The notes beneath the pieces are model-generated. The model had not been told where the DNA came from. It searched no databases and saw only the letters and a list, made by a program, of their open reading frames with translations. Source: Geomonas subterranea (GTDB taxonomy: Bacteria; Desulfobacterota; Desulfuromonadia; Geobacterales; Geobacteraceae). From it: a stretch of 64,000 nucleotides of DNA. Below, piece after piece: positions 1,244 through 10,722 of the stretch; position 1 is the first letter of the stretch; the number at the start of each line of letters is the position of its first letter. Position numbers and translations under genes: made by a program. The stretch covers positions 868,001 to 932,000 of the forward strand of contig NZ_CP077683.1 of the NCBI RefSeq assembly GCF_019063845.1, given 5' to 3'.

Positions 1244-1328
1244 GGTAAACGACAATACTAAACCTTCCGCGAGGATGGGACGGAAAGCCTATAGGGTCTC
1301 CCTGAGACAGCCGGGTCGCCGAAATACC
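1244..1328 (+). ncRNA. GEMM-I riboswitch, 3',3'-cGAMP (GEMM-Ib) type
   Basis: The fold is P1 GGTA/TACC, a conserved ACTAAACC segment, a P2 hairpin capped by CGCGAG, GGGACGGAAAGCC, a P3 arm (GGGTCTCCCTGAGAC) and GCCGGGTCGCCGAAA. The leading AATACTAAACC and GCGGAAAGCC-like core match the Geobacter class shown in the literature to bind cyclic AMP-GMP rather than c-di-GMP (Kellenberger, Nelson and Ren groups, 2015). It sits about 70 bp before a secreted Fn3 protein. Its 3' strand GCCGGG is shared with the following terminator, so ligand binding should favour readthrough (inference). Confidence 0.88.
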
Positions 1329-1357
1329 TGCACTACAGGTCGGTGCCCGGTTTTTTT
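1311..1357 (+). terminator. Riboswitch-controlled intrinsic terminator
   Basis: CCGGG (1311-1315) pairs with CCCGG (1346-1350). An inner stem ACCTG/CAGGT follows, and seven T residues occupy 1351-1357. The 5' arm is also part of the aptamer, so aptamer and terminator are mutually exclusive, the layout of an ON switch. Confidence 0.85.
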
Positions 1358-1397
1358 GCGTCCTGAATCCTGGTCCGACCTCCTGTGGAGGTCACAG

Positions 1398-2534
1398 TTG
1401 AAAGTAAAGCATGTAGTGCTCCTCGCGCTGTTTGCGCTCATTGTTCCCAGCGCGGCCTTTTCATCCACTGTGACCCTGCAATGGGATCCTTCCTCCGACC
1501 CCGATCTTGCGGGTTACCGGGTATATTACCAGGCCAATTCTTCAGCCATCCCTTTCGTTGGCAGTGGCGCAGCGGAAGGTAACGCCCCCGTCGATGTTTC
1601 CGCCAGTACCACCGCTTCCATTAGCGGCCTCGATCCCGGCACCTCGTACTACTTCGCGGTGACCGCCTACAACACCAGCGGTGCGGAGAGCGTCTACTCC
1701 AATCTCGTGCAGGTAAAGGAGATGGTTCCGCCGGTGGTCGGCATCACCTCACCGGCAACGAACGCGACCATCAGCGGGCCGGTAGCCGTCGGGATCAGCG
1801 CCGTCGACAATGTCGGGGTGACCAGCGTGGAGTTGTACGTGAACGGGAACCTGCTGGGGAGCAGCAACACCGCTCCCTACGTCTTCAACTGGACTACCTC
1901 CTCGCTCGCCCCCGGGCAATACACCCTCACCGCGAAGGCTTACGACGCGGCAGGCAACGTTGGCACCTCGGAAGAGGTCGTCTTCGTTGCCGGAGACGCG
2001 ATGGTTCCAACCATCGCCTTTTCCGCACCTGCAAACAACAAGCAGGTAAGTGGCATCGTCGACGTGACGGCCAGCGCCTCCGATAACGTCGGAGTCACCG
2101 GTTTAGCCCTTTACGACAACTCGACCCTGATTTACGCGGCCAACGCAGGCACACTCAGCTACAAATGGAACACCGCGACCGCCGGCAACGGGAGCCACAC
2201 CTTGGTCGCCATAGCCTCCGATGCCGCCGGAAACGCAGGTTCGGCCAGCGTGTCTGTCACCGTGGCCAACGACCTCACCCCTCCGGCCGTCAACATCGTT
2301 TCCCCTTCCTCACCACAGATCACCAATGCGAACCTCAAGGTCGCGGCTTCGGCCAAGGACAACGTGGCTGTGGTACGGATGGAGGTCTATCTGGACGGAG
2401 CGCTGCTTTTGGGAACCAATTCGGGGTCCATCAGCGCGGCGGCGAAGCTCGGTGTCGGGACACATACCGTCACCGTCAACGCTTTCGACGCCGCCGGAAA
2501 CAAGGGGACCAAGGCCGTGTCCGTAACACGCTAG
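1398..2534 (+). CDS. Secreted Fn3 and bacterial Ig-like repeat protein A
   Basis: The 378-residue reading uses TTG at 1398, preceded by GTGGAGG with 5-6 bp spacing. The in-frame ATG at 1275 lies inside the riboswitch and is rejected. Residues 1-22 form a signal peptide (VKHVVLLALFALIVPSAAF). An Fn3 domain follows (about 25-108, with WDPSSDPDLAGYRVYYQ and YYFAVTAYNTSGAESVYSN). Three Ig-like repeats of about 90 residues follow, each with PAxNxxISG, VSASDNVGVT and YDAAGN motifs (Big-type). There is no anchor or sorting tail, so release or association with another surface component is likely. It is a paralogue of the protein at 2850-3998, with near-identical Fn3 sequence. Expression should depend on 3',3'-cGAMP through the leader. 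Role in adhesion or electron-transfer surfaces is inference. Confidence 0.85.
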   Translation: MKVKHVVLLALFALIVPSAAFSSTVTLQWDPSSDPDLAGYRVYYQANSSAIPFVGSGAAEGNAPVDVSASTTASISGLDPGTSYYFAVTAYNTSGAESVYSNLVQVKEMVPPVVGITSPATNATISGPVAVGISAVDNVGVTSVELYVNGNLLGSSNTAPYVFNWTTSSLAPGQYTLTAKAYDAAGNVGTSEEVVFVAGDAMVPTIAFSAPANNKQVSGIVDVTASASDNVGVTGLALYDNSTLIYAANAGTLSYKWNTATAGNGSHTLVAIASDAAGNAGSASVSVTVANDLTPPAVNIVSPSSPQITNANLKVAASAKDNVAVVRMEVYLDGALLLGTNSGSISAAAKLGVGTHTVTVNAFDAAGNKGTKAVSVTR

Positions 2535-2601
2535 CTGTTGGTCCTCGTCGAGAGGGTAATCGCGGGGGGAGCCGGGGCGGCGCTTTATTGGTAAAAACAA
2601 G
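2535..2601. other. Spacer between the paralogous riboswitch modules
   Basis: The region 2535-2849 contains no gene; it holds a promoter, a hairpin (GATGACC/GGTCATC, 2639-2662), the second riboswitch and its terminator. This first part has no recognisable signal. Confidence 0.5.
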
Positions 2602-2630
2602 TTGCTTTTCATTTATAAATCAAATAATAT
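2602..2630 (+). promoter_or_regulatory. Sigma-70 promoter for the second riboswitch module
   Basis: TTGCTT (2602-2607) and TAATAT (2625-2630) are separated by 17 bp in an AT-rich pocket. Transcription would start near 2637, about 40 nt before the aptamer, giving the second paralogue its own promoter. Confidence 0.6.
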
Positions 2631-2675
2631 GCGCTCCCGATGACCAGGCCGTCCCGGTCATCCAACCTAATAATA

Positions 2676-2760
2676 GGTACACGACAATACTAAACCATCC
2701 GCGAGGGTGGGACGGAAAGCCTACAGGGTCTCTCTGAGACAGCCGGGTCGCCGAAATGCC
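2676..2760 (+). ncRNA. GEMM-I riboswitch, 3',3'-cGAMP (GEMM-Ib) type, second copy
   Basis: The layout matches the copy at 1244: GGTA/TGCC P1, ACAATACTAAACC, hairpin ATCCGCGAGGGT, GGGACGGAAAGCC, P3 GGGTCTCTCTGAGAC and AGCCGGGTCGCCGAAA. The lead GGTACACGACAATACTAAACC is, as far as I recall it, essentially that of the Geobacter RNA crystallised with 3',3'-cGAMP. It precedes the second Fn3/Ig protein. The two copies differ by scattered substitutions, consistent with duplication of a whole riboswitch-gene module. Confidence 0.9.
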
Positions 2761-2796
2761 AAGTACTGGTGCTGCGGTCCCGGCTTTTCTTTTTTC
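2742..2796 (+). terminator. Riboswitch-controlled intrinsic terminator, second copy
   Basis: GCCGGG (2742-2747) pairs with CCCGGC (2779-2784), followed by TTTTCTTTTTT. The 5' arm is shared with the aptamer, so ligand binding should prevent termination. Confidence 0.85.
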
Positions 2797-2849: not shown

Positions 2850-3998
2850 ATGGAAGTATCCGCAAGAGCTGGATTGTTTTCTGTACTGCCGCTGTTTTTG
2901 TTCTTGCTGCTGTCCCTGCCTCATCCCTGTCTCGCCACCAGCGTGTCCCTGGCCTGGGATCCCAGCCCGGACACCGACATCGCCGGATACCGGGTCTACT
3001 ACCAGGCCAACAGCAGCGGACTTCCGTTCCAGGGGACCGGAGCCGCCGAGGGAAATGCCCCTGTTGATGGCGGCACACTCACCGTGGCGAGCATCAGCGG
3101 GCTGGATCCGGCCAACTCTTACTATTTCGCCGTGACCGCATACAACTCCGCCGGTACCGAAAGCGTCTATTCGAACATCGTGCAGGTCCCCGAAACCCTC
3201 CCCCCCCTGGTCAGCGTAACCTCCCCCGCGGAAAATACCCCGGTGGCCACAAATCTCGTCATCTGCGCAGCCGCCGCCGACAACGTCGGCATCGCCAAGG
3301 TACAGTTCCTGGTGAACGGCGCCCAGGTGCACGAGACTTCCGCCGCACCTTATACCTACACCTGGAACGCGGCGGCGCTGCCGGCGGGGAGCTACGCCAT
3401 CTCGGCCAGGGCCGTCGACCTCTCCGGAAACGAGGCGGTATCCAAAGCCGTCAACGTTTCAGTGGTGGGGGACGCCATATCACCCACAGTTTCGCTGGCG
3501 GTGCCTCCTTCGGATGCCAAAGTGGGGGGCACCATCAGCGTCTCAGCAAGCGCCAGCGACAACCTCGGCGTGAGCAGGCTCGAGCTCTCCATCGACGGGA
3601 CGTTGTTATTGAGCAGCAACCAGAACCCCGTGAGCTACGTCTGGAATACGGCGAGCTTCGCCAATGGCACCCATGTCATCAGCGTCAGGGCGTACGATGC
3701 AGCCGGAAACAGCGGAGTGGCATCCGCGACCGTCCTCGTGGACAACGGCACCGGTCAGACCGACTCGACACCCCCCCCGGCCTCGACCTCCACCTCGACT
3801 TCAACTGCAACCTCGCCCCTCACGCTCGCGGACGCGCAATTCGCCCTTCAGATCGCGTCGGGGCAGCAGGGTCCGACGCTCGACCAGATGCAGCGCCTGG
3901 ACGTGGCGCCCTACGTGAATGGCCAACCCCAGCCCAACGGCAAAGTCGATACCGGCGACGTCGTGGTCATCCTCGCCAAGCTGACCGGTAAGCTGTGA
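2850..3998 (+). CDS. Secreted Fn3/Ig-like protein B with C-terminal dockerin-like segment
   Basis: The 382-residue reading uses ATG 2850, behind GGGAG; the earlier in-frame ATG at 2769 lies inside the terminator. A signal peptide (about 1-30, LFLFLLLSLPHPCLA) is followed by an Fn3 domain almost identical to protein A (about 31-115) and two Ig-like repeats with DNVGI, DNLGV and YDAAGN motifs. A Ser/Thr/Pro linker follows (STSTSTS, about 310-325). The last 58 residues read LTLADAQFALQIASG and later NGKVDTGDVVVILAKL, resembling the duplicated Ca-binding helix-loop segments of dockerins. The next gene encodes a cohesin-like lipoprotein, so a surface docking pair is plausible. The dockerin call rests on pattern only. 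Confidence 0.82.
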   Translation: MEVSARAGLFSVLPLFLFLLLSLPHPCLATSVSLAWDPSPDTDIAGYRVYYQANSSGLPFQGTGAAEGNAPVDGGTLTVASISGLDPANSYYFAVTAYNSAGTESVYSNIVQVPETLPPLVSVTSPAENTPVATNLVICAAAADNVGIAKVQFLVNGAQVHETSAAPYTYTWNAAALPAGSYAISARAVDLSGNEAVSKAVNVSVVGDAISPTVSLAVPPSDAKVGGTISVSASASDNLGVSRLELSIDGTLLLSSNQNPVSYVWNTASFANGTHVISVRAYDAAGNSGVASATVLVDNGTGQTDSTPPPASTSTSTSTATSPLTLADAQFALQIASGQQGPTLDQMQRLDVAPYVNGQPQPNGKVDTGDVVVILAKLTGKL

Positions 3999-4050: not shown

Positions 4051-4482
4051 ATGGAGATCTTGAAACAAGCAGTGCTGGGTGGGATGATGTTCCTGGTAAC
4101 CGCCTGCGGAGGCGGGGGAGGGGCTGATGTCGCGGTAACGGTCCCGGTGCACGCCACCATGACTACTGTCGTAAGCGGAGCCACCGCCGTCGGCACCGTG
4201 TCGGTGTCTGGGCTAGCGACCGCCGCCCCTTACGGTTTGAATTTCGTGGTGACGATGCCCGCCGGTGCAACCCTGTTCACTGTCGGAACCTCCGGGGCGT
4301 ACGCGCGCAACGGTCTTGCCAGCATCGCAGGCACCAACAGTCTCATCCTCGCCAGCAGCAATTTGGCTTCCGGTGAGATCCTGACCGTCACCTTCGCCAA
4401 TGTTCCGCCGGGCGCCCAGCCGGGCGACTTCGCCGTAACTCTTTCGGCCGTCTACGATGGCCAGGGTAACCCCATTCAATAG
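4051..4482 (+). CDS. Cohesin-like lipoprotein
   Basis: This is a 143-residue protein with AGGAGG 7 bp before ATG. The N-terminus is a lipoprotein signal ending in LVTAC (Cys19), followed by a Gly-rich tether, so it is lipid-anchored. The remaining about 120 residues are beta-rich, with YGLNFVVTMPAGATLF, an Ala/Ser/Asn-rich middle, GEILTVTFANVPPGAQPGDFAVTL (read as two strands) and VYDGQGNPI at the end, the pattern of short cohesin-fold domains annotated in Geobacter. It lies 52 bp after protein B and probably shares its transcript and cGAMP control. It could anchor the dockerin-like tail of protein B. The cohesin assignment is by resemblance and less certain than the lipoprotein call. Confidence 0.65.
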   Translation: MEILKQAVLGGMMFLVTACGGGGGADVAVTVPVHATMTTVVSGATAVGTVSVSGLATAAPYGLNFVVTMPAGATLFTVGTSGAYARNGLASIAGTNSLILASSNLASGEILTVTFANVPPGAQPGDFAVTLSAVYDGQGNPIQ

Positions 4483-4746: not shown

Positions 4747-5475
4747 TTACGGCCTCTTGCCGTTGCTTCGTGTATTGAAGAAGGTCTTGTTGAGCAGGAT
4801 CGCCTTGCTGTCCAGGACGCTGATCACGTCCGACTTCTCCAGGCTGCGCAGCACGCGGCTCATGGTTTCGCGGGTCACTGACGCGTAACTGGCCATCTGC
4901 TGGTGGGTCATCTTCACGTCGATGATGACGCCGCGGTCGTCACGGACCCCGTACAGTTCTCCCAGCCGGTCCAGCAGGGAAAGAACCCGGTCCTGGGCGT
5001 TCTCCGCGTTGAAGCTGAGGATCTTGATCATCTCCCACGATTCGCGCAGGCGGCTGCACAGCAGCTCGATGACCTTCTTGCGGATCTCGTCGTTGTGCAT
5101 CAGGTGCTGCTCGAAATCGCTCTTGTGCAAAAGCCCGATCACCGAGTCCTCGTGGGCTATGATGGTGGCCGGGGAGGTCTTGTTGTCCAAAAGGGACATC
5201 TCGCCGAAGAAGTCGTTCTTCTTGTGGATCGTGATGATCTGCTCTTTCCCCTCGTCGTTCATCTTCACGACCCGTACCTTCCCCGAATAGATCAGGTACA
5301 TGTAGCTGGAGGTGTCCTCCTCGTACAGGACTATCTGCTCCTTTTCGTAGTTCTTCTTTCTGAACAGTTTCTCAACCTGATCGACCTCATCTGGGGTCAG
5401 GGATGAGAAGAAAGGGATGCTGCTGATGACGTTGGATTCGTGCTTGTGTCTCAGCGATGTCGGACAAGTCATCAC
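4747..5475 (-). CDS. Crp/Fnr family transcriptional regulator with CRP-like recognition helix
   Basis: This is a 242-residue protein. The cyclic-nucleotide-binding fold (about 20-135) has a GEMSLLDNKTSPATIIA segment in place of CRP's phosphate cassette. The Arg that contacts cAMP in CRP appears absent, so another ligand or none is likely. A long dimer helix follows, then a winged helix (about 165-230) whose recognition helix reads VTRETMSRVL. RETxxR is the E. coli CRP arrangement that reads TGTGA, and a perfect TGTGA-N6-TCACA site lies at 1185-1200. There is no FNR-type Cys cluster. It is divergent from the exosortase operon, and its own promoter is overlapped by a 17-bp palindrome. Confidence 0.88.
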   Translation of the reverse strand: MMTCPTSLRHKHESNVISSIPFFSSLTPDEVDQVEKLFRKKNYEKEQIVLYEEDTSSYMYLIYSGKVRVVKMNDEGKEQIITIHKKNDFFGEMSLLDNKTSPATIIAHEDSVIGLLHKSDFEQHLMHNDEIRKKVIELLCSRLRESWEMIKILSFNAENAQDRVLSLLDRLGELYGVRDDRGVIIDVKMTHQQMASYASVTRETMSRVLRSLEKSDVISVLDSKAILLNKTFFNTRSNGKRP

Positions 5476-5685: not shown

Positions 5686-6531
5686 GTGACTGTTGCCGAG
5701 TCGATAAGGACGTACAGGTGGCAATTCGTGTTGGTGCTCCTGTTGCTTACCGGAGTCTACTACGCAGTCGTTGCCGACATGGTGTCCCAATGGTATGAAG
5801 ACCCTAACTATTCCCACGGCTTTATAGTTCCTCTAGTCGCCGGATACTTCGTGTACCAGCGGCGGCATGACGTGGCTGGCCTGCCCCTGGATCCCTGGTG
5901 GCCCGGCCTGTTCATCATCCTGCTCGGTCTCGCCCAGCTTTCGATTGGGTGGCTCGGCATCGAGTTTTTCACCATGAGAAGCTCCCTCATTGTGACGCTG
6001 GGGGGGATGACCCTGTATTTCTTTGGCAGGCAGTTCTTCGCCTTCATGTTCCTCCCCTTGTGCTATCTCTGCTTCATGGTTCCAATCCCTTACATCGTCT
6101 ACGACATGATTGCCTTCCCTTTGAAGCTTTTTGTGACCCGCATTTCCATTGCCGCCCTGAAGTTGATGGGGGTCGTGGTTATGCATGAAGGTAACGTAAT
6201 ACTGCTTCCCATGACCACGCTCGAGGTGGCGGATGCCTGCAGCGGAATCAGGTCTCTCATCTCCCTTCTCGCCGTTGCCGTGGCCTTTGCTTCGTGCCTG
6301 AAACTGAGTTGGCGGAAAAAGGTCTTGCTCGCCTCCCTGGCCATCCCTGTCGCGATTCTGGCCAACGCCTTGCGGGTCATAGGCACGGGAGCGCTGGCCC
6401 AGTACTGGGGGGCACGAGCTGCCGAAGGGTTCTTTCACGAGTTTGCCGGGATGGCGGTCTTCGTCGTAGCTGTTCTGGTTCTGGTGGCTATGGGGTCTTG
6501 GCTCGCAAGAGGCACGCAGGGGGCGCGATGA
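5686..6531 (+). CDS. Exosortase (EpsH-type membrane transpeptidase)
   Basis: The 281-residue protein uses GTG at 5686 behind GAGAGGA. It is an integral membrane protein with about eight hydrophobic segments. The catalytic set is intact: Cys185 in ADACSGIRSL, Arg230 in NALRVIGT and His251 in FFHEFAG. Exosortases recognise short C-terminal tails (motif, hydrophobic helix, basic end) on secreted proteins in exopolysaccharide-producing Gram-negatives and are thought to cleave and transfer them. Its stop overlaps the EpsI start by 4 bp (ATGA), and PrsK/PrsR follow. It is shorter than forms with EpsI fused to the C-terminus. A candidate substrate is encoded at 14501-15595. Confidence 0.93.
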   Translation: MTVAESIRTYRWQFVLVLLLLTGVYYAVVADMVSQWYEDPNYSHGFIVPLVAGYFVYQRRHDVAGLPLDPWWPGLFIILLGLAQLSIGWLGIEFFTMRSSLIVTLGGMTLYFFGRQFFAFMFLPLCYLCFMVPIPYIVYDMIAFPLKLFVTRISIAALKLMGVVVMHEGNVILLPMTTLEVADACSGIRSLISLLAVAVAFASCLKLSWRKKVLLASLAIPVAILANALRVIGTGALAQYWGARAAEGFFHEFAGMAVFVVAVLVLVAMGSWLARGTQGAR

Positions 6532-7160
6532 TCAACTGGTATCGCTTTGTCATGCTGTATGTGCTTTTGCTTGGCGTCGGGCTGTATTTGCAGTTTCACC
6601 GCGATGTCACCGTGCCGGTGAACAGGCCGCTCGAACAGTTCCCGGCCCAGGTGAACGGGTGGCGTATGGTCGGCTCTACCCAATTTTCCGCTGACGTGCA
6701 GAACGTGCTTAAGGCAACGGACCTCCTTGTGAGGCAGTATGTCAACGAAAAAGGGGAAAAGGTCGAGCTTTATATCGGCTATCACGGTGGCGGTAAAGGG
6801 AGCGGTGAGATTCATTCCCCCAAACACTGCCTCCCTGGAAGCGGCTGGCACGAGGAGTTCACCTCAAAGGACACCATCCCTGCCGGGAGCGGCTCCTTGA
6901 ACGTGGTGCGGTCCGTTTATCGGAAGGGCGATAGTAGCGCGCTTTTTCTTTACTGGTACCAGGTCCGCGGCAAGAGCATTTCCGACGAGTTCTCGCTGAA
7001 AGGGCAACAGATTGCGAATTCATTTCTCTCTCGACGTCGAGATGCTTCTTTCATCAGGATATCACTGCCATCGGAAGGCGATCAGGCAAAAGCCACTGCC
7101 ACGGCCAAGAGGTTCGCGCAGGATCTGCTCCCGACCATAAGGGCTTTTCTTCCGGGCTGA
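6528..7160 (+). CDS. epsI: Exosortase-associated protein EpsI (DUF3485)
   Basis: This 210-residue protein starts at ATG 6528, overlapping the exosortase stop. One N-terminal membrane anchor (about 6-24) is followed by a periplasmic domain with VNGWRMV, ELYIGYHGGGKGSGEIHSPKHCLPGSGW and LFLYWYQ, the conserved features of the EpsI family. The family is fused to or adjacent to exosortases and is needed for exopolysaccharide output in Methylobacillus; its chemistry is unresolved. The conserved HSPKxCLPGxGW motif with Cys and His is intact. Co-translation with the exosortase is likely. Confidence 0.92.
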   Translation: MINWYRFVMLYVLLLGVGLYLQFHRDVTVPVNRPLEQFPAQVNGWRMVGSTQFSADVQNVLKATDLLVRQYVNEKGEKVELYIGYHGGGKGSGEIHSPKHCLPGSGWHEEFTSKDTIPAGSGSLNVVRSVYRKGDSSALFLYWYQVRGKSISDEFSLKGQQIANSFLSRRRDASFIRISLPSEGDQAKATATAKRFAQDLLPTIRAFLPG

Positions 7161-7279
7161 GTCGGCCGCGATATTTTGCGCCCTGGAGAAGCCAGGACCG
7201 GGGGGGCGCGCACGCGGCGTAGCTGGTTATAGGGGCCATTGGCGAGCTTCGGCAGGTATCCTGGGCCCTAGAGGTGACG

Positions 7280-9352
7280 ATGTCGCTTACGCTGATTTCA
7301 GTCTTTTTGCTGCTGGCCTCCGTGCTGCGCATCGTGCTGCTGGAGAGACGAAGCGGTGCGTACAGCTACCTGGCAGTGCCGTTTTTCGCCATCGCTGTCC
7401 TGGAACTCTTCGATTTCTTCGCACTGGGGAATTCCCGGGCTGAAATCGACTGGAAGCGCTGCGCCCTGTTCGTCGAGGCGCTTTTACCGTCCTGCTGGAT
7501 TTTGCTGAGCCTGACCTACGCGCGGGAGCTCCCGGAGCGGGGACTTTCGTTGAAGAGCCGGTTACTGGTCGGGATCAGCGCGCTTCTGGTACTGGTTCCC
7601 CTGTTGCTGCCGGCGGCTTCCTTCTACTACGCTCCTGACTTCCCGGCCGAGGCGGTGCTGTTTCTGGCCGACGCCGGCTACTACTTCTACGTGGCGATCC
7701 TGTTGCTGCTGGTGGTGGCGCTAATCAACTTCGAGTCCACGCTGGTGAACGCCTCCTCGGAAGCCCTGTGGCGGGTGAAGCTCGATATCGTCGCGCTCTG
7801 CTCCATGCTCGCCGTGCTCGCGTTCTACTACTCGAGCGCCCTGCTGTACCGCTCGCTCAACATGGAGCTTGCGCCGCTGCGCTCCCTGCTCTTCATCATC
7901 GCCTCGCTGATGTTGCTCTATGCCCGTTCCCACTGGCGCGGCAGCGCCCGTGTCAAGGTCTCGCAGGCGGTCCTGCTGAAATCCGTGGTCATAGTGGTGA
8001 TCTCCGCCTACCTGGTCATGCTGGGCGCGCTCGGCGAGGCGATGAAGTACTTCGGGCCGCTGTTCCCGCGGGTGCTCACCCTGTCACTGGGGTTCATAGC
8101 CGGCATCCTGCTGCTGCTTCTGCTCCTCTCCGACCGGGCCAAGCGGGAACTGAAGGTGCTGCTACACAAGCACTTCTACCAGAGTAAATACGATTACCGG
8201 GCGCAGTGGCTTGGGTTGACCGAGAGGCTGTCGACCTTCGAAGGGGGGGATGACCTGGTCCACAGGGTGCTCCTCGCCTACTGCGAGATCTTCGGAGTGC
8301 ACGGAGCGGCGCTGTATCAGCACCAGCAAGGGTGCGGCTGGTACTGCGTCGCCTCTGCCCTCGAACTGGAGCCGCTTCGGGAGACCATCAACGACGACAA
8401 CCCGATCCTGACCTCCCTGCGGGAGAGGCAGTGGGTCTTTTGCAGCGGTGACCCCAACCATGAGCTCACCCCGCACGAATGGCTCTTCCTCGAACGCTAC
8501 GGGATCTCCTTCGTGGTTCCCCTCTTCGAGGGGGAGGCGCTCTCCGGATTCATCGTGCTGGGGGCCCAGGTGGTGCCCGACGAGCAGTACCGCTACGAAG
8601 ACTTCGATCTGATGAAGACCATCGCGCGTCAGGTGTCGGTTGCCATGCAGCATCAGCGCCTCTCCGAGCAGCTGACCCAGTCCAAGGCGATGGAGGCGGT
8701 GGGGAGCCTGGCGACCTTCGTGGTGCACGACCTGAAGAACCTTGCGGCCACCATCTCGCTGGTGCTCGAGAACGCCCGGGAGCACATCGATAACCCGGAG
8801 TTTCAGCAGGACATGCTGAGCAGCCTCGGCAACACCACGAAGAAGATGCACCACCTGATCGGCCGGCTGCGCAACCTGGGCGAGAGCGAACTCCTGCAGA
8901 GGCGCCCGGTCGATCTGCTGGCGCTCACCGGGGATTGCGCGGCGATGGTGCAGGGAAGGACCATTTCGGTGCAGGGTGACCAGCAGGTAGTGCTGGGGGA
9001 CAGGGAGGAGCTGCAAAAGGTGCTTTTGAACCTCTTGCTGAACGCGGTGGAGGCTTCACCCCCCGGGGCATCCATAACCGTGGAAGTCGGCTGCAACGGC
9101 ACCCCGTTCGTCAAGGTGGCGGACCGCGGCTGCGGCATGTCCCCGCGCTTTATCAGGAACGATCTGTTCGTGCCGTTTCGCACCTCAAAGCCGACCGGGC
9201 TCGGCATCGGACTGTACCAGTCGCGCCAGATCGTCACGGCCCACGGCGGCAGTATCGAAGTCTCCAGCGTGGAAGGGGAGGGGACCGTGTTCACCGTCCA
9301 CCTCCCGGTCGCGGCGGAGGAACCGGCGGCCGGCGCCATCGAGGCCGCATGA
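7280..9352 (+). CDS. prsK: PrsK-type sensor histidine kinase of the exosortase system
   Basis: The 690-residue reading uses ATG 7280, since GAGGTG at 7271-7276 is better placed as its ribosome binding site than for GTG 7274. The N-terminal 280 residues contain about eight membrane segments. A GAF-like sensor region follows (about 310-450), then a dimerisation helix with phospho-acceptor His483 (VVHDLKNLAATISLV) and an HATPase domain with NLLLNAVEA, DRGCGM and GLGIGLYQSR. This matches the PEP-CTERM system kinase family in length and order. It is a cognate partner of the sigma-54 activator encoded next, with a 4-bp ATGA overlap. The signal is unknown; a cell-envelope cue is likely. Confidence 0.9.
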   Translation: MSLTLISVFLLLASVLRIVLLERRSGAYSYLAVPFFAIAVLELFDFFALGNSRAEIDWKRCALFVEALLPSCWILLSLTYARELPERGLSLKSRLLVGISALLVLVPLLLPAASFYYAPDFPAEAVLFLADAGYYFYVAILLLLVVALINFESTLVNASSEALWRVKLDIVALCSMLAVLAFYYSSALLYRSLNMELAPLRSLLFIIASLMLLYARSHWRGSARVKVSQAVLLKSVVIVVISAYLVMLGALGEAMKYFGPLFPRVLTLSLGFIAGILLLLLLLSDRAKRELKVLLHKHFYQSKYDYRAQWLGLTERLSTFEGGDDLVHRVLLAYCEIFGVHGAALYQHQQGCGWYCVASALELEPLRETINDDNPILTSLRERQWVFCSGDPNHELTPHEWLFLERYGISFVVPLFEGEALSGFIVLGAQVVPDEQYRYEDFDLMKTIARQVSVAMQHQRLSEQLTQSKAMEAVGSLATFVVHDLKNLAATISLVLENAREHIDNPEFQQDMLSSLGNTTKKMHHLIGRLRNLGESELLQRRPVDLLALTGDCAAMVQGRTISVQGDQQVVLGDREELQKVLLNLLLNAVEASPPGASITVEVGCNGTPFVKVADRGCGMSPRFIRNDLFVPFRTSKPTGLGIGLYQSRQIVTAHGGSIEVSSVEGEGTVFTVHLPVAAEEPAAGAIEAA

Positions 9353-10722
9353 AGGAGGAGCAGGTGAGAAAGCTTCTGATTGTCGATGACAATGAGGATA
9401 TCAGGCAACAACTGAAGTGGGGGCTGAACCAGGAGTACCAGGTGCTTCTGGCGGCCGATGCCCGCGAAGCCCTTTCCCTTTTCAGGAGCGAGCGCCCTGC
9501 GGTCGTGGTGCTCGACCTGGGGCTCCCCCCGTACCCGGACAGCTCGGTCGAGGGATTCCGCTGCCTGGACGAGATGCTGGGGGTGAACCCGGTGACCAAG
9601 GTCATCATGCTGACCGGCAACAACGAAAGGGAAAACGCGCTCAAGGCGATGCGCATGGGCGCCTTCGACTTTTACGCGAAGCCCCCCGTGTTGTCCGAAC
9701 TGAAGGTGATGATCGGGCGCGCCTTCCACATCGCCAACATCGAGGAGCAAAACAGCGTGATCTCCCCCTGCGGGGAGGCGGAAGAGCAGTGGGGTATGGT
9801 TGGGAAGTGCGCCGAGATGCAGGCTGTCTTCACCACCATCCGCAAGGTCGCCGCCTCCAACGCCCCCATCCTGATCCTCGGCGAGAGCGGTACCGGCAAG
9901 GAGCTTGTGGCGGCCGCCATTCACGAGGCGAGCCAGCGCCGCACGGGGCCGATGGTGGCGATCAACTGCGGCGCCATCCCGGAGAATCTCCTGGAGAGCG
10001 AGCTCTTCGGGCACGAGAAGGGAGCCTTCACCGGCGCTCACACCGCCGTGCGCGGGAAGCTGCAGTACGCCCACAAGGGGACCCTTTTCCTCGACGAGAT
10101 TGGTGAACTCCCGGTGAACCTGCAGGTGAAGCTGCTGCGTTTTCTCCAGGAAGGGACCATCCAGCGGGTCGGCGGGCGGGAGGAGATCCCCATCGACGCG
10201 CGCACCACCTGCGCCACCAACATCGACATCCCGAAGGCGATCGAGGAGGGACGGTTCCGCGAGGACCTCTACTACCGGATAGGCGTGGTCACCGTCAAGC
10301 TCCCCCCCCTTAGGTCGCGCGGCGACGACGTCCTCCTGCTGGCGGAAACCTTCCTGAGGCTCTTTTGCAAGGAGAGCAAGAAGAAGGTGCGGCTGTCGCC
10401 CGCTGCCATTGCCTTCCTGAAACGGCACGACTGGCCCGGGAACGTGCGCGAATTGAGAAACCGCATCCAGCGCGCCGTCATCATGTGCGACGGTTCCAGC
10501 ATCGGCCCGCTCGATCTTGGTTGCGACTTCGAGCCTCCGCCGATGCCGTCCCACAACAATGACAACCTCTCGCTCAGGGAAGCGCGCGAACGGATGGAGC
10601 GGGAGATGATACTGAACGCCATAGAACGGCAATCGGGCAACATCCTGAAGGCCGCCGAGGAACTGGGCGTCAGCCGCCCCACGCTCTACGACCTGATGAA
10701 GAAGCTTTCCATACACCAGTAG
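9349..10722 (+). CDS. prsR: PrsR-type sigma-54-dependent response regulator
   Basis: This 457-residue protein has a receiver domain with acidic pocket IVDDNED, phospho-acceptor Asp56 (VVVLDLGLPP) and Lys in YAKPP. A AAA+ domain follows (about 150-390), with Walker A GESGTGKE near residue 180 and the sigma-54 contact loop GAFTGA near 225. A Fis-type helix-turn-helix ends the protein (NILKAAEELGVSRPTLYDLMKKL). It should activate sigma-54 promoters of exosortase-target genes when phosphorylated by PrsK. A good -24/-12 element lies at 14419-14432, before the tail-bearing secreted protein. A strong terminator follows the gene. Confidence 0.93.
   Translation: MKEEQVRKLLIVDDNEDIRQQLKWGLNQEYQVLLAADAREALSLFRSERPAVVVLDLGLPPYPDSSVEGFRCLDEMLGVNPVTKVIMLTGNNERENALKAMRMGAFDFYAKPPVLSELKVMIGRAFHIANIEEQNSVISPCGEAEEQWGMVGKCAEMQAVFTTIRKVAASNAPILILGESGTGKELVAAAIHEASQRRTGPMVAINCGAIPENLLESELFGHEKGAFTGAHTAVRGKLQYAHKGTLFLDEIGELPVNLQVKLLRFLQEGTIQRVGGREEIPIDARTTCATNIDIPKAIEEGRFREDLYYRIGVVTVKLPPLRSRGDDVLLLAETFLRLFCKESKKKVRLSPAAIAFLKRHDWPGNVRELRNRIQRAVIMCDGSSIGPLDLGCDFEPPPMPSHNNDNLSLREARERMEREMILNAIERQSGNILKAAEELGVSRPTLYDLMKKLSIHQ

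Follow-up and report, generated by a model that had tools for sequence, protein, structure and literature searches.

In Geobacter sulfurreducens, ON logic has been shown for the GEMM-Ib riboswitches of pgcA and other genes, and deletion of gacA lowers the genes located behind such RNAs (PMC6456294). Those Geobacter aptamers of the A-type that have been tested prefer cGAMP ~1200–1600-fold (PMC6456294, PMC8835794), and the 3′,3′-cGAMP riboswitch structure 4YAZ comes with a published list of pocket residues (PMC7288161). Fn3 genes are already known among the outputs: G. bemidjiensis carries a triplicated, GEMM-regulated Fn3 gene family (Gbem_1796, 1798 and 1799; PMC2996986), the Fn3-domain gene GSU1945 is a GEMM-Ib gene of G. 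sulfurreducens characterized for cGAMP (PMC8835794), and the Fn3 gene KN400_1971 lies behind a GEMM riboswitch that mutated over 17 years of electrode growth (PMC13194489). Given these reports, the view of an earlier note on the present DNA, in which the regulon would be extended by Fn3/Ig proteins, does not hold. Riboswitch class, ligand, logic and Fn3 association have all been published, and the locus described here is a well-preserved further example. What is new is that both of its riboswitch-gene modules are kept in 11 out of 11 related genomes, with different conserved promoters. Also new are the gene for a cohesin-like lipoprotein behind module 2 and, just outside the window, a third Fn3/Ig paralog that has three MshEN modules and no riboswitch.

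The window, i.e., the 64,000-nt stretch of the Geomonas subterranea genome that was analyzed, contains two GEMM-I aptamers on the forward strand (positions below refer to the window unless prefixed with G000:C1, which denotes the contig of this genome). Using cmscan with Rfam 15, RF01051 (GEMM-I, c-di-GMP-I) matched at 1247–1323 with 40.0 bits (E = 2.3e-4) and at 2679–2755 with 42.1 bits (E = 7.2e-5), E-values being scaled to 64 kb × 4227 families. Both matches are full length (model positions 1–87) and lie above the curated gathering cut-off of 35 bits, in line with the earlier note, which had described two GEMM-I RNAs 1.4 kb apart and proposed a covariance-model search to check them. Its term ‘tandem pair’ needs correction: each aptamer has a leader and gene of its own, giving two separate riboswitch-gene modules spaced by 1.4 kb. 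The label ‘tandem riboswitch’ was rejected, since a 378-codon gene separates the aptamers and the conserved promoter blocks differ.

Aptamer 1 precedes gene 1 (1398–2534, +; TTG start with GGAGG), encoding a secreted 378-aa protein with Fn3 and three Big_7 domains, and aptamer 2 precedes gene 2 (2850–3998, +), whose secreted 382-aa product has Fn3, two Big_7 domains and a conserved C-terminal D..AP..G..PNGKVDTGDVVVIL domain. That each RNA stands before a paralogous secreted Fn3/Ig protein, as had been claimed, is borne out by the Fn3 and Big_7 (Ig) domains, by signal-peptide-like hydrophobic segments at both N-termini and by ~50% identity between the two paralogs. We infer a surface or adhesive role for both proteins. 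Gene 2 is followed after 53 nt by a gene for a cohesin-like lipoprotein (4051–4482, +; lipobox VTAC), with which it is probably co-transcribed. The AlphaFold model of this lipoprotein (pLDDT 81) finds cohesins as its best Foldseek matches (2xdh, E = 5.5e-4, TM-score ~0.5); its sequence gave no Pfam cohesin match. In most named relatives examined, the lipoprotein also has an extra Ig-type stretch (Big_7-like, by eye). Anchoring of the gene-2 product via a cohesin-dockerin contact was a tempting idea, but a search of the gene-2 C-terminus with Pfam, NCBIfam and PDB profiles found no dockerin, and this conserved region matched nothing in Pfam or the PDB. Further downstream, module 2 is followed by a Crp/Fnr-family regulator (4747–5475, −; PF00027 and PF13545) and by genes for exosortase A, EpsI, PrsK and PrsR.

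To place the locus among its relatives, we searched 48 Geobacteraceae genomes at the protein level and the loci with a model. An association of GEMM-Ib with Fn3/Ig proteins occurs in several genera of the Geobacteraceae. Within the window’s genus, each of 11 related genomes has the two-module layout, the two modules forming separate ortholog groups; the 22 riboswitches of these genomes are all A-type, and an ortholog of the lipoprotein succeeds gene 2 in each of the 11 loci. In the gene tree, the gene-1 proteins (11 rows) and the gene-2 proteins (10 rows sampled) form two clades, each with support 100/99, which span the same genomes and each come with their own riboswitch. Two clades together with 22 A-type riboswitches indicate that the duplication is old in this group and that both switches were retained, as would be expected had an ancestor of this Geomonas subclade duplicated a riboswitch together with its gene to give the two units. 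The idea of a duplicated module, also voiced in the earlier note, is thus upheld.

At the Gbem_1796/1798/1799 locus of G. bemidjiensis, a close relative, Fn3/Ig surface-protein genes are multiplied and have GEMM RNAs nearby, as in the window (PMC2996986). The surveyed genome matched to this species (G014) carries A-type GEMM RNAs before Ig-repeat proteins of 827 and 1105 aa; unlike those of the window, these proteins are longer and only 37–44% identical in the matching stretch, and the gene-1/gene-2 pair is absent. GSU1945 and KN400_1971 of G. sulfurreducens likewise place an Fn3-domain gene behind a GEMM riboswitch. No orthology of GSU1945 with genes 1 and 2 was demonstrated, the genomes of genus g6 giving only weak Big_7 matches; what these genomes have behind a GEMM-Ib pair (L142) is, unlike in the window, only a di-haem and Ig protein. 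The window locus confirms that, besides cytochromes and pili, surface Fn3/Ig proteins are an old, conserved output of cGAMP-type riboswitches in the Geobacteraceae.

The DNA upstream of the two modules differs, and separate promoters are therefore most likely. Upstream of riboswitch 1 lies a CRP/FNR-type palindrome, TGTGATTTGAATCACA (1185–1200, +), the sole zero-mismatch TGTGA-N6-TCACA match in the window; an exact match to TGTGATNNNAATCACA occurs once in the genome, at this box. A GTGAT...(A)TCAC-like core is conserved in 11 of 11 orthologous loci, and its distance from the aptamer varies little. TTAGAA (1221–1226, +), ~30 nt downstream of the center of the CRP-like site, may be a −10 element, being spaced like those of class II CRP promoters and partly conserved (TA), and the Crp/Fnr-family regulator encoded downstream of the lipoprotein is a candidate reader of the box. 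No CRP-like palindrome precedes riboswitch 2. Its upstream region instead bears a sigma70-like element, TTGCTT-N17-TAATAT (2602–2630, +), within a block conserved in the 11 orthologous loci as TTGCTT-N17-TAnTAT; at three mismatches, 0 occurrences are expected by chance within the window. A sigma70 promoter scan missed this element, which falls below the consensus threshold, and it was found by conservation. Sharing the class of switch but not the promoter, and with paralogs as outputs, the modules form a natural pair in which the interplay of promoter input and riboswitch could be tested. An array of short repeats, TTGATCGGGTTTGGTTTTCTC, lies at ~820–945, upstream of module 1.

As for the switching mechanism, the 3′ strand of each aptamer, ACAGCCGGGUCGCCGAAAU, doubles as the 5′ arm of a strong hairpin with a U run behind it; at both aptamers, ACAGCCGGG(U) opens this stable structure. 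Terminator hairpin 1 (1309–1357, +) has GCCGGG...CGCCG in common with the aptamer 3′ strand and ends in a 7-T run, and hairpin 2 (2741–2796, +) has GCCGGG in common with it and a T-rich tail. Folding gave −25.9 kcal/mol (z −4.4) for 1307–1357 and −23.3 kcal/mol (z −2.7) for 2739–2791, the full-length fold of riboswitch 2 being unremarkable against shuffles (z −1.3). Overlap and hairpin folds agree with the earlier claim of a terminator that shares the GCCGGG strand of each aptamer, rendering terminator and aptamer 3′ strand mutually exclusive at both leaders, and a terminator-like hairpin using GCCGGG was seen in 49 of 53 RNAs of related loci. When transcripts of growing length were folded, an aptamer-like P1/P2/P3 arrangement was present at 95 nt and was superseded by the terminator at full length. 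In the energy model, full-length riboswitch 1 reached −41.7 vs −25.8 kcal/mol with the terminator arm blocked, and riboswitch 2 −41.2 vs −26.0 kcal/mol. As the terminator displaces the aptamer fold at full length in these predictions, the default state would be OFF, and ligand should switch the genes ON.

Which ligand this would be is suggested by the aptamers themselves. Both have an A in place of the G of c-di-GMP aptamers (Vc2 position 20; A14 of 4YAZ), and both keep the other ligand-pairing residue, a C (Vc2 C92; C75 of 4YAZ). Numbered from 1244, riboswitch 1 reads G8 A9 C10 A11 A12 U13 A14 C15, and the 4YAZ pocket residues G8, A11, A12, U13, A14, C15, A41 and A42 are matched letter for letter. 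The genome (4.99 Mb, one contig) has 14 RF01051 matches, ten of which, including both window RNAs, form a tight set with 92% mean column identity; a model built from these ten finds exactly ten in the genome. Specificity A and pairing C are invariant or nearly so in this GEMM-Ib set: the Vc2 G20-equivalent base is A in 9 of the 10, both window RNAs included. Across the family, the A is found in all 54 strong-or-clear aptamers of the locus set, except two model matches below 30 bits. The pgcA (GSU1761) GEMM-Ib riboswitch and 4YAZ resemble the window RNAs in specificity A, pocket residues and terminator-coupled ON logic; the pgcA output, an extracellular cytochrome, is different. We consider the window RNAs to be, with high probability, ON switches of the cGAMP type, the subclass to which the earlier note had assigned them and to which the A at the specificity position of both points. 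One or both aptamers might alternatively be promiscuous or respond mainly to c-di-GMP, such that the genes would follow a general c-di-GMP biofilm program. A single Rfam model does cover both ligands, the GEMM-Ib riboswitch before omcST responds to both (PMC6456294), and the genome encodes 29 GGDEF matches along with four c-di-GMP-type aptamers. The latter, however, which make up the remainder of the 14 matches, are of the ordinary type and differ throughout from the GEMM-Ib set to which both window RNAs belong, and the ~1200–1600-fold preference cited above was measured on aptamers with the same A, which renders this explanation improbable.

Even with cGAMP as the ligand, one module might have degenerated, its riboswitch being a relic and its gene driven by the promoter alone. 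In favor of this, P2 of riboswitch 1 has a U-U mismatch in the window’s genome that the orthologs lack, and aptamer 1 may be weaker for it. Yet the ligand-pocket residues are all intact, as are P3 and the terminator, and both RNAs were retained in all 11 genomes; decay of either riboswitch is accordingly the least credible of the alternatives considered here. A third explanation accepts the riboswitches as real and concerns the output: rather than adhesins, the proteins could be scaffold or matrix parts of the adjoining exosortase/PEP-CTERM polysaccharide system. The genes for exosortase A, EpsI, PrsK and PrsR directly downstream (5686–10722) and the cohesin-like lipoprotein gene after gene 2 speak for such a link. 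Against it, neither protein has a PEP-CTERM-type C-terminus by eye, both units have their own leaders, and in another genome an Fn3 gene stands beside PrsR without a riboswitch (L145). A scaffold role is hence a serious contender, if one that we would not put first.

Under the favored reading, that of cGAMP-type ON switches before surface or adhesive proteins, the locus would comprise two independent transcription units, each opening with a GEMM-Ib riboswitch that acts as a transcriptional ON switch. In the absence of ligand, a downstream complementary arm would capture GCCGGG...CGCCG of the aptamer, and the resulting terminator would end transcription ahead of the start codon. Binding of 3′,3′-cGAMP would hold P1 and P3 together and block the terminator, allowing RNA polymerase to read through into the gene for a secreted Fn3 and Ig repeat protein; in unit 2, transcription would continue into the gene for the cohesin-like lipoprotein. 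Unit 1 would receive an additional CRP-type promoter input, and unit 2 would be transcribed from its sigma70-like promoter.

The ligand may be supplied by a GacA-type Hypr GGDEF protein encoded elsewhere in the genome. Taking Ser in place of Asp as the criterion for Hypr GGDEF domains, we found the serine in one of the genome’s GGDEF domains, encoded at G000:C1:2388015-2388488 (L070), which contains GHLIGS and RYGGDEY (signature NDNFGHLIGSRVL...RYGGDEY, with ...GHLIGSRVL... in the same domain). Its nearest PDB entry is the GacA fusion 6d9m (E = 9e-67). Judged by these sequence features, a cGAMP synthase is likely to be present.

A third paralog, of 965 aa with Fn3 and seven Big_7 domains, is encoded divergently just left of the window (G000:C1:864862-867759; L110:6862-9759, −). 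Its gene lacks a GEMM riboswitch. Residues 1–200 of this protein instead comprise three c-di-GMP-binding MshEN modules (NF053729, E = 4.8e-41), with a complete 24+5+24 motif as defined in PMC5013675, RLGELLVSSGFITRQQLDLALAKQ-SRTGQ-KLGEVIVAEGFARRSQINHVVRLQ, and one hydrophobic segment lies between the MshEN modules and the Fn3 and Big_7 domains. The 11 genomes with the two-module layout all retain the in-frame MshEN-Fn3/Ig fusion, which other families of the order have as well; a limited literature search found no publication on it. The domain makeup hints that a single surface-protein family may be linked to both dinucleotides, to cGAMP via RNA and to c-di-GMP via protein. MshEN binds cGAMP too, more weakly than c-di-GMP. 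More speculatively, and with considerable doubt on our part, the window copies would be wired to cGAMP through RNA and the third copy to c-di-GMP through cytosolic MshEN, acting across the membrane segment on the Fn3/Ig stalk, so that, with the CRP-type input of unit 1, the choice of the surface protein displayed would depend on metabolic state, cGAMP and c-di-GMP, all integrated at this locus. The paralog would allow a direct test of whether a surface protein is controlled inside-out by c-di-GMP.

Several further GEMM loci were noted in the course of the survey. In genome G046, three consecutive GEMM-Ib aptamers lie upstream of an Fn3-type protein gene (L147:4088-4546). In the window’s own genome, a cGAMP-type GEMM RNA with terminator stands directly before a PAS-GGDEF-EAL gene (L005/L064, G000:C1:2533942-2534017, −), through which cGAMP might act on c-di-GMP turnover. 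A true tandem GEMM-I pair (L007 and L004, G000:C1:4964757-4964488, −), the first aptamer A-type and the second with G at the specificity position, might integrate two ligands; the 925-aa product of the gene behind it combines CxxCH motifs with Ig-like repeats. Finally, a pair of c-di-GMP-type GEMM-I RNAs (L001 and L009, G000:C1:3929445-3929773, +) precedes the gene for another large secreted protein.
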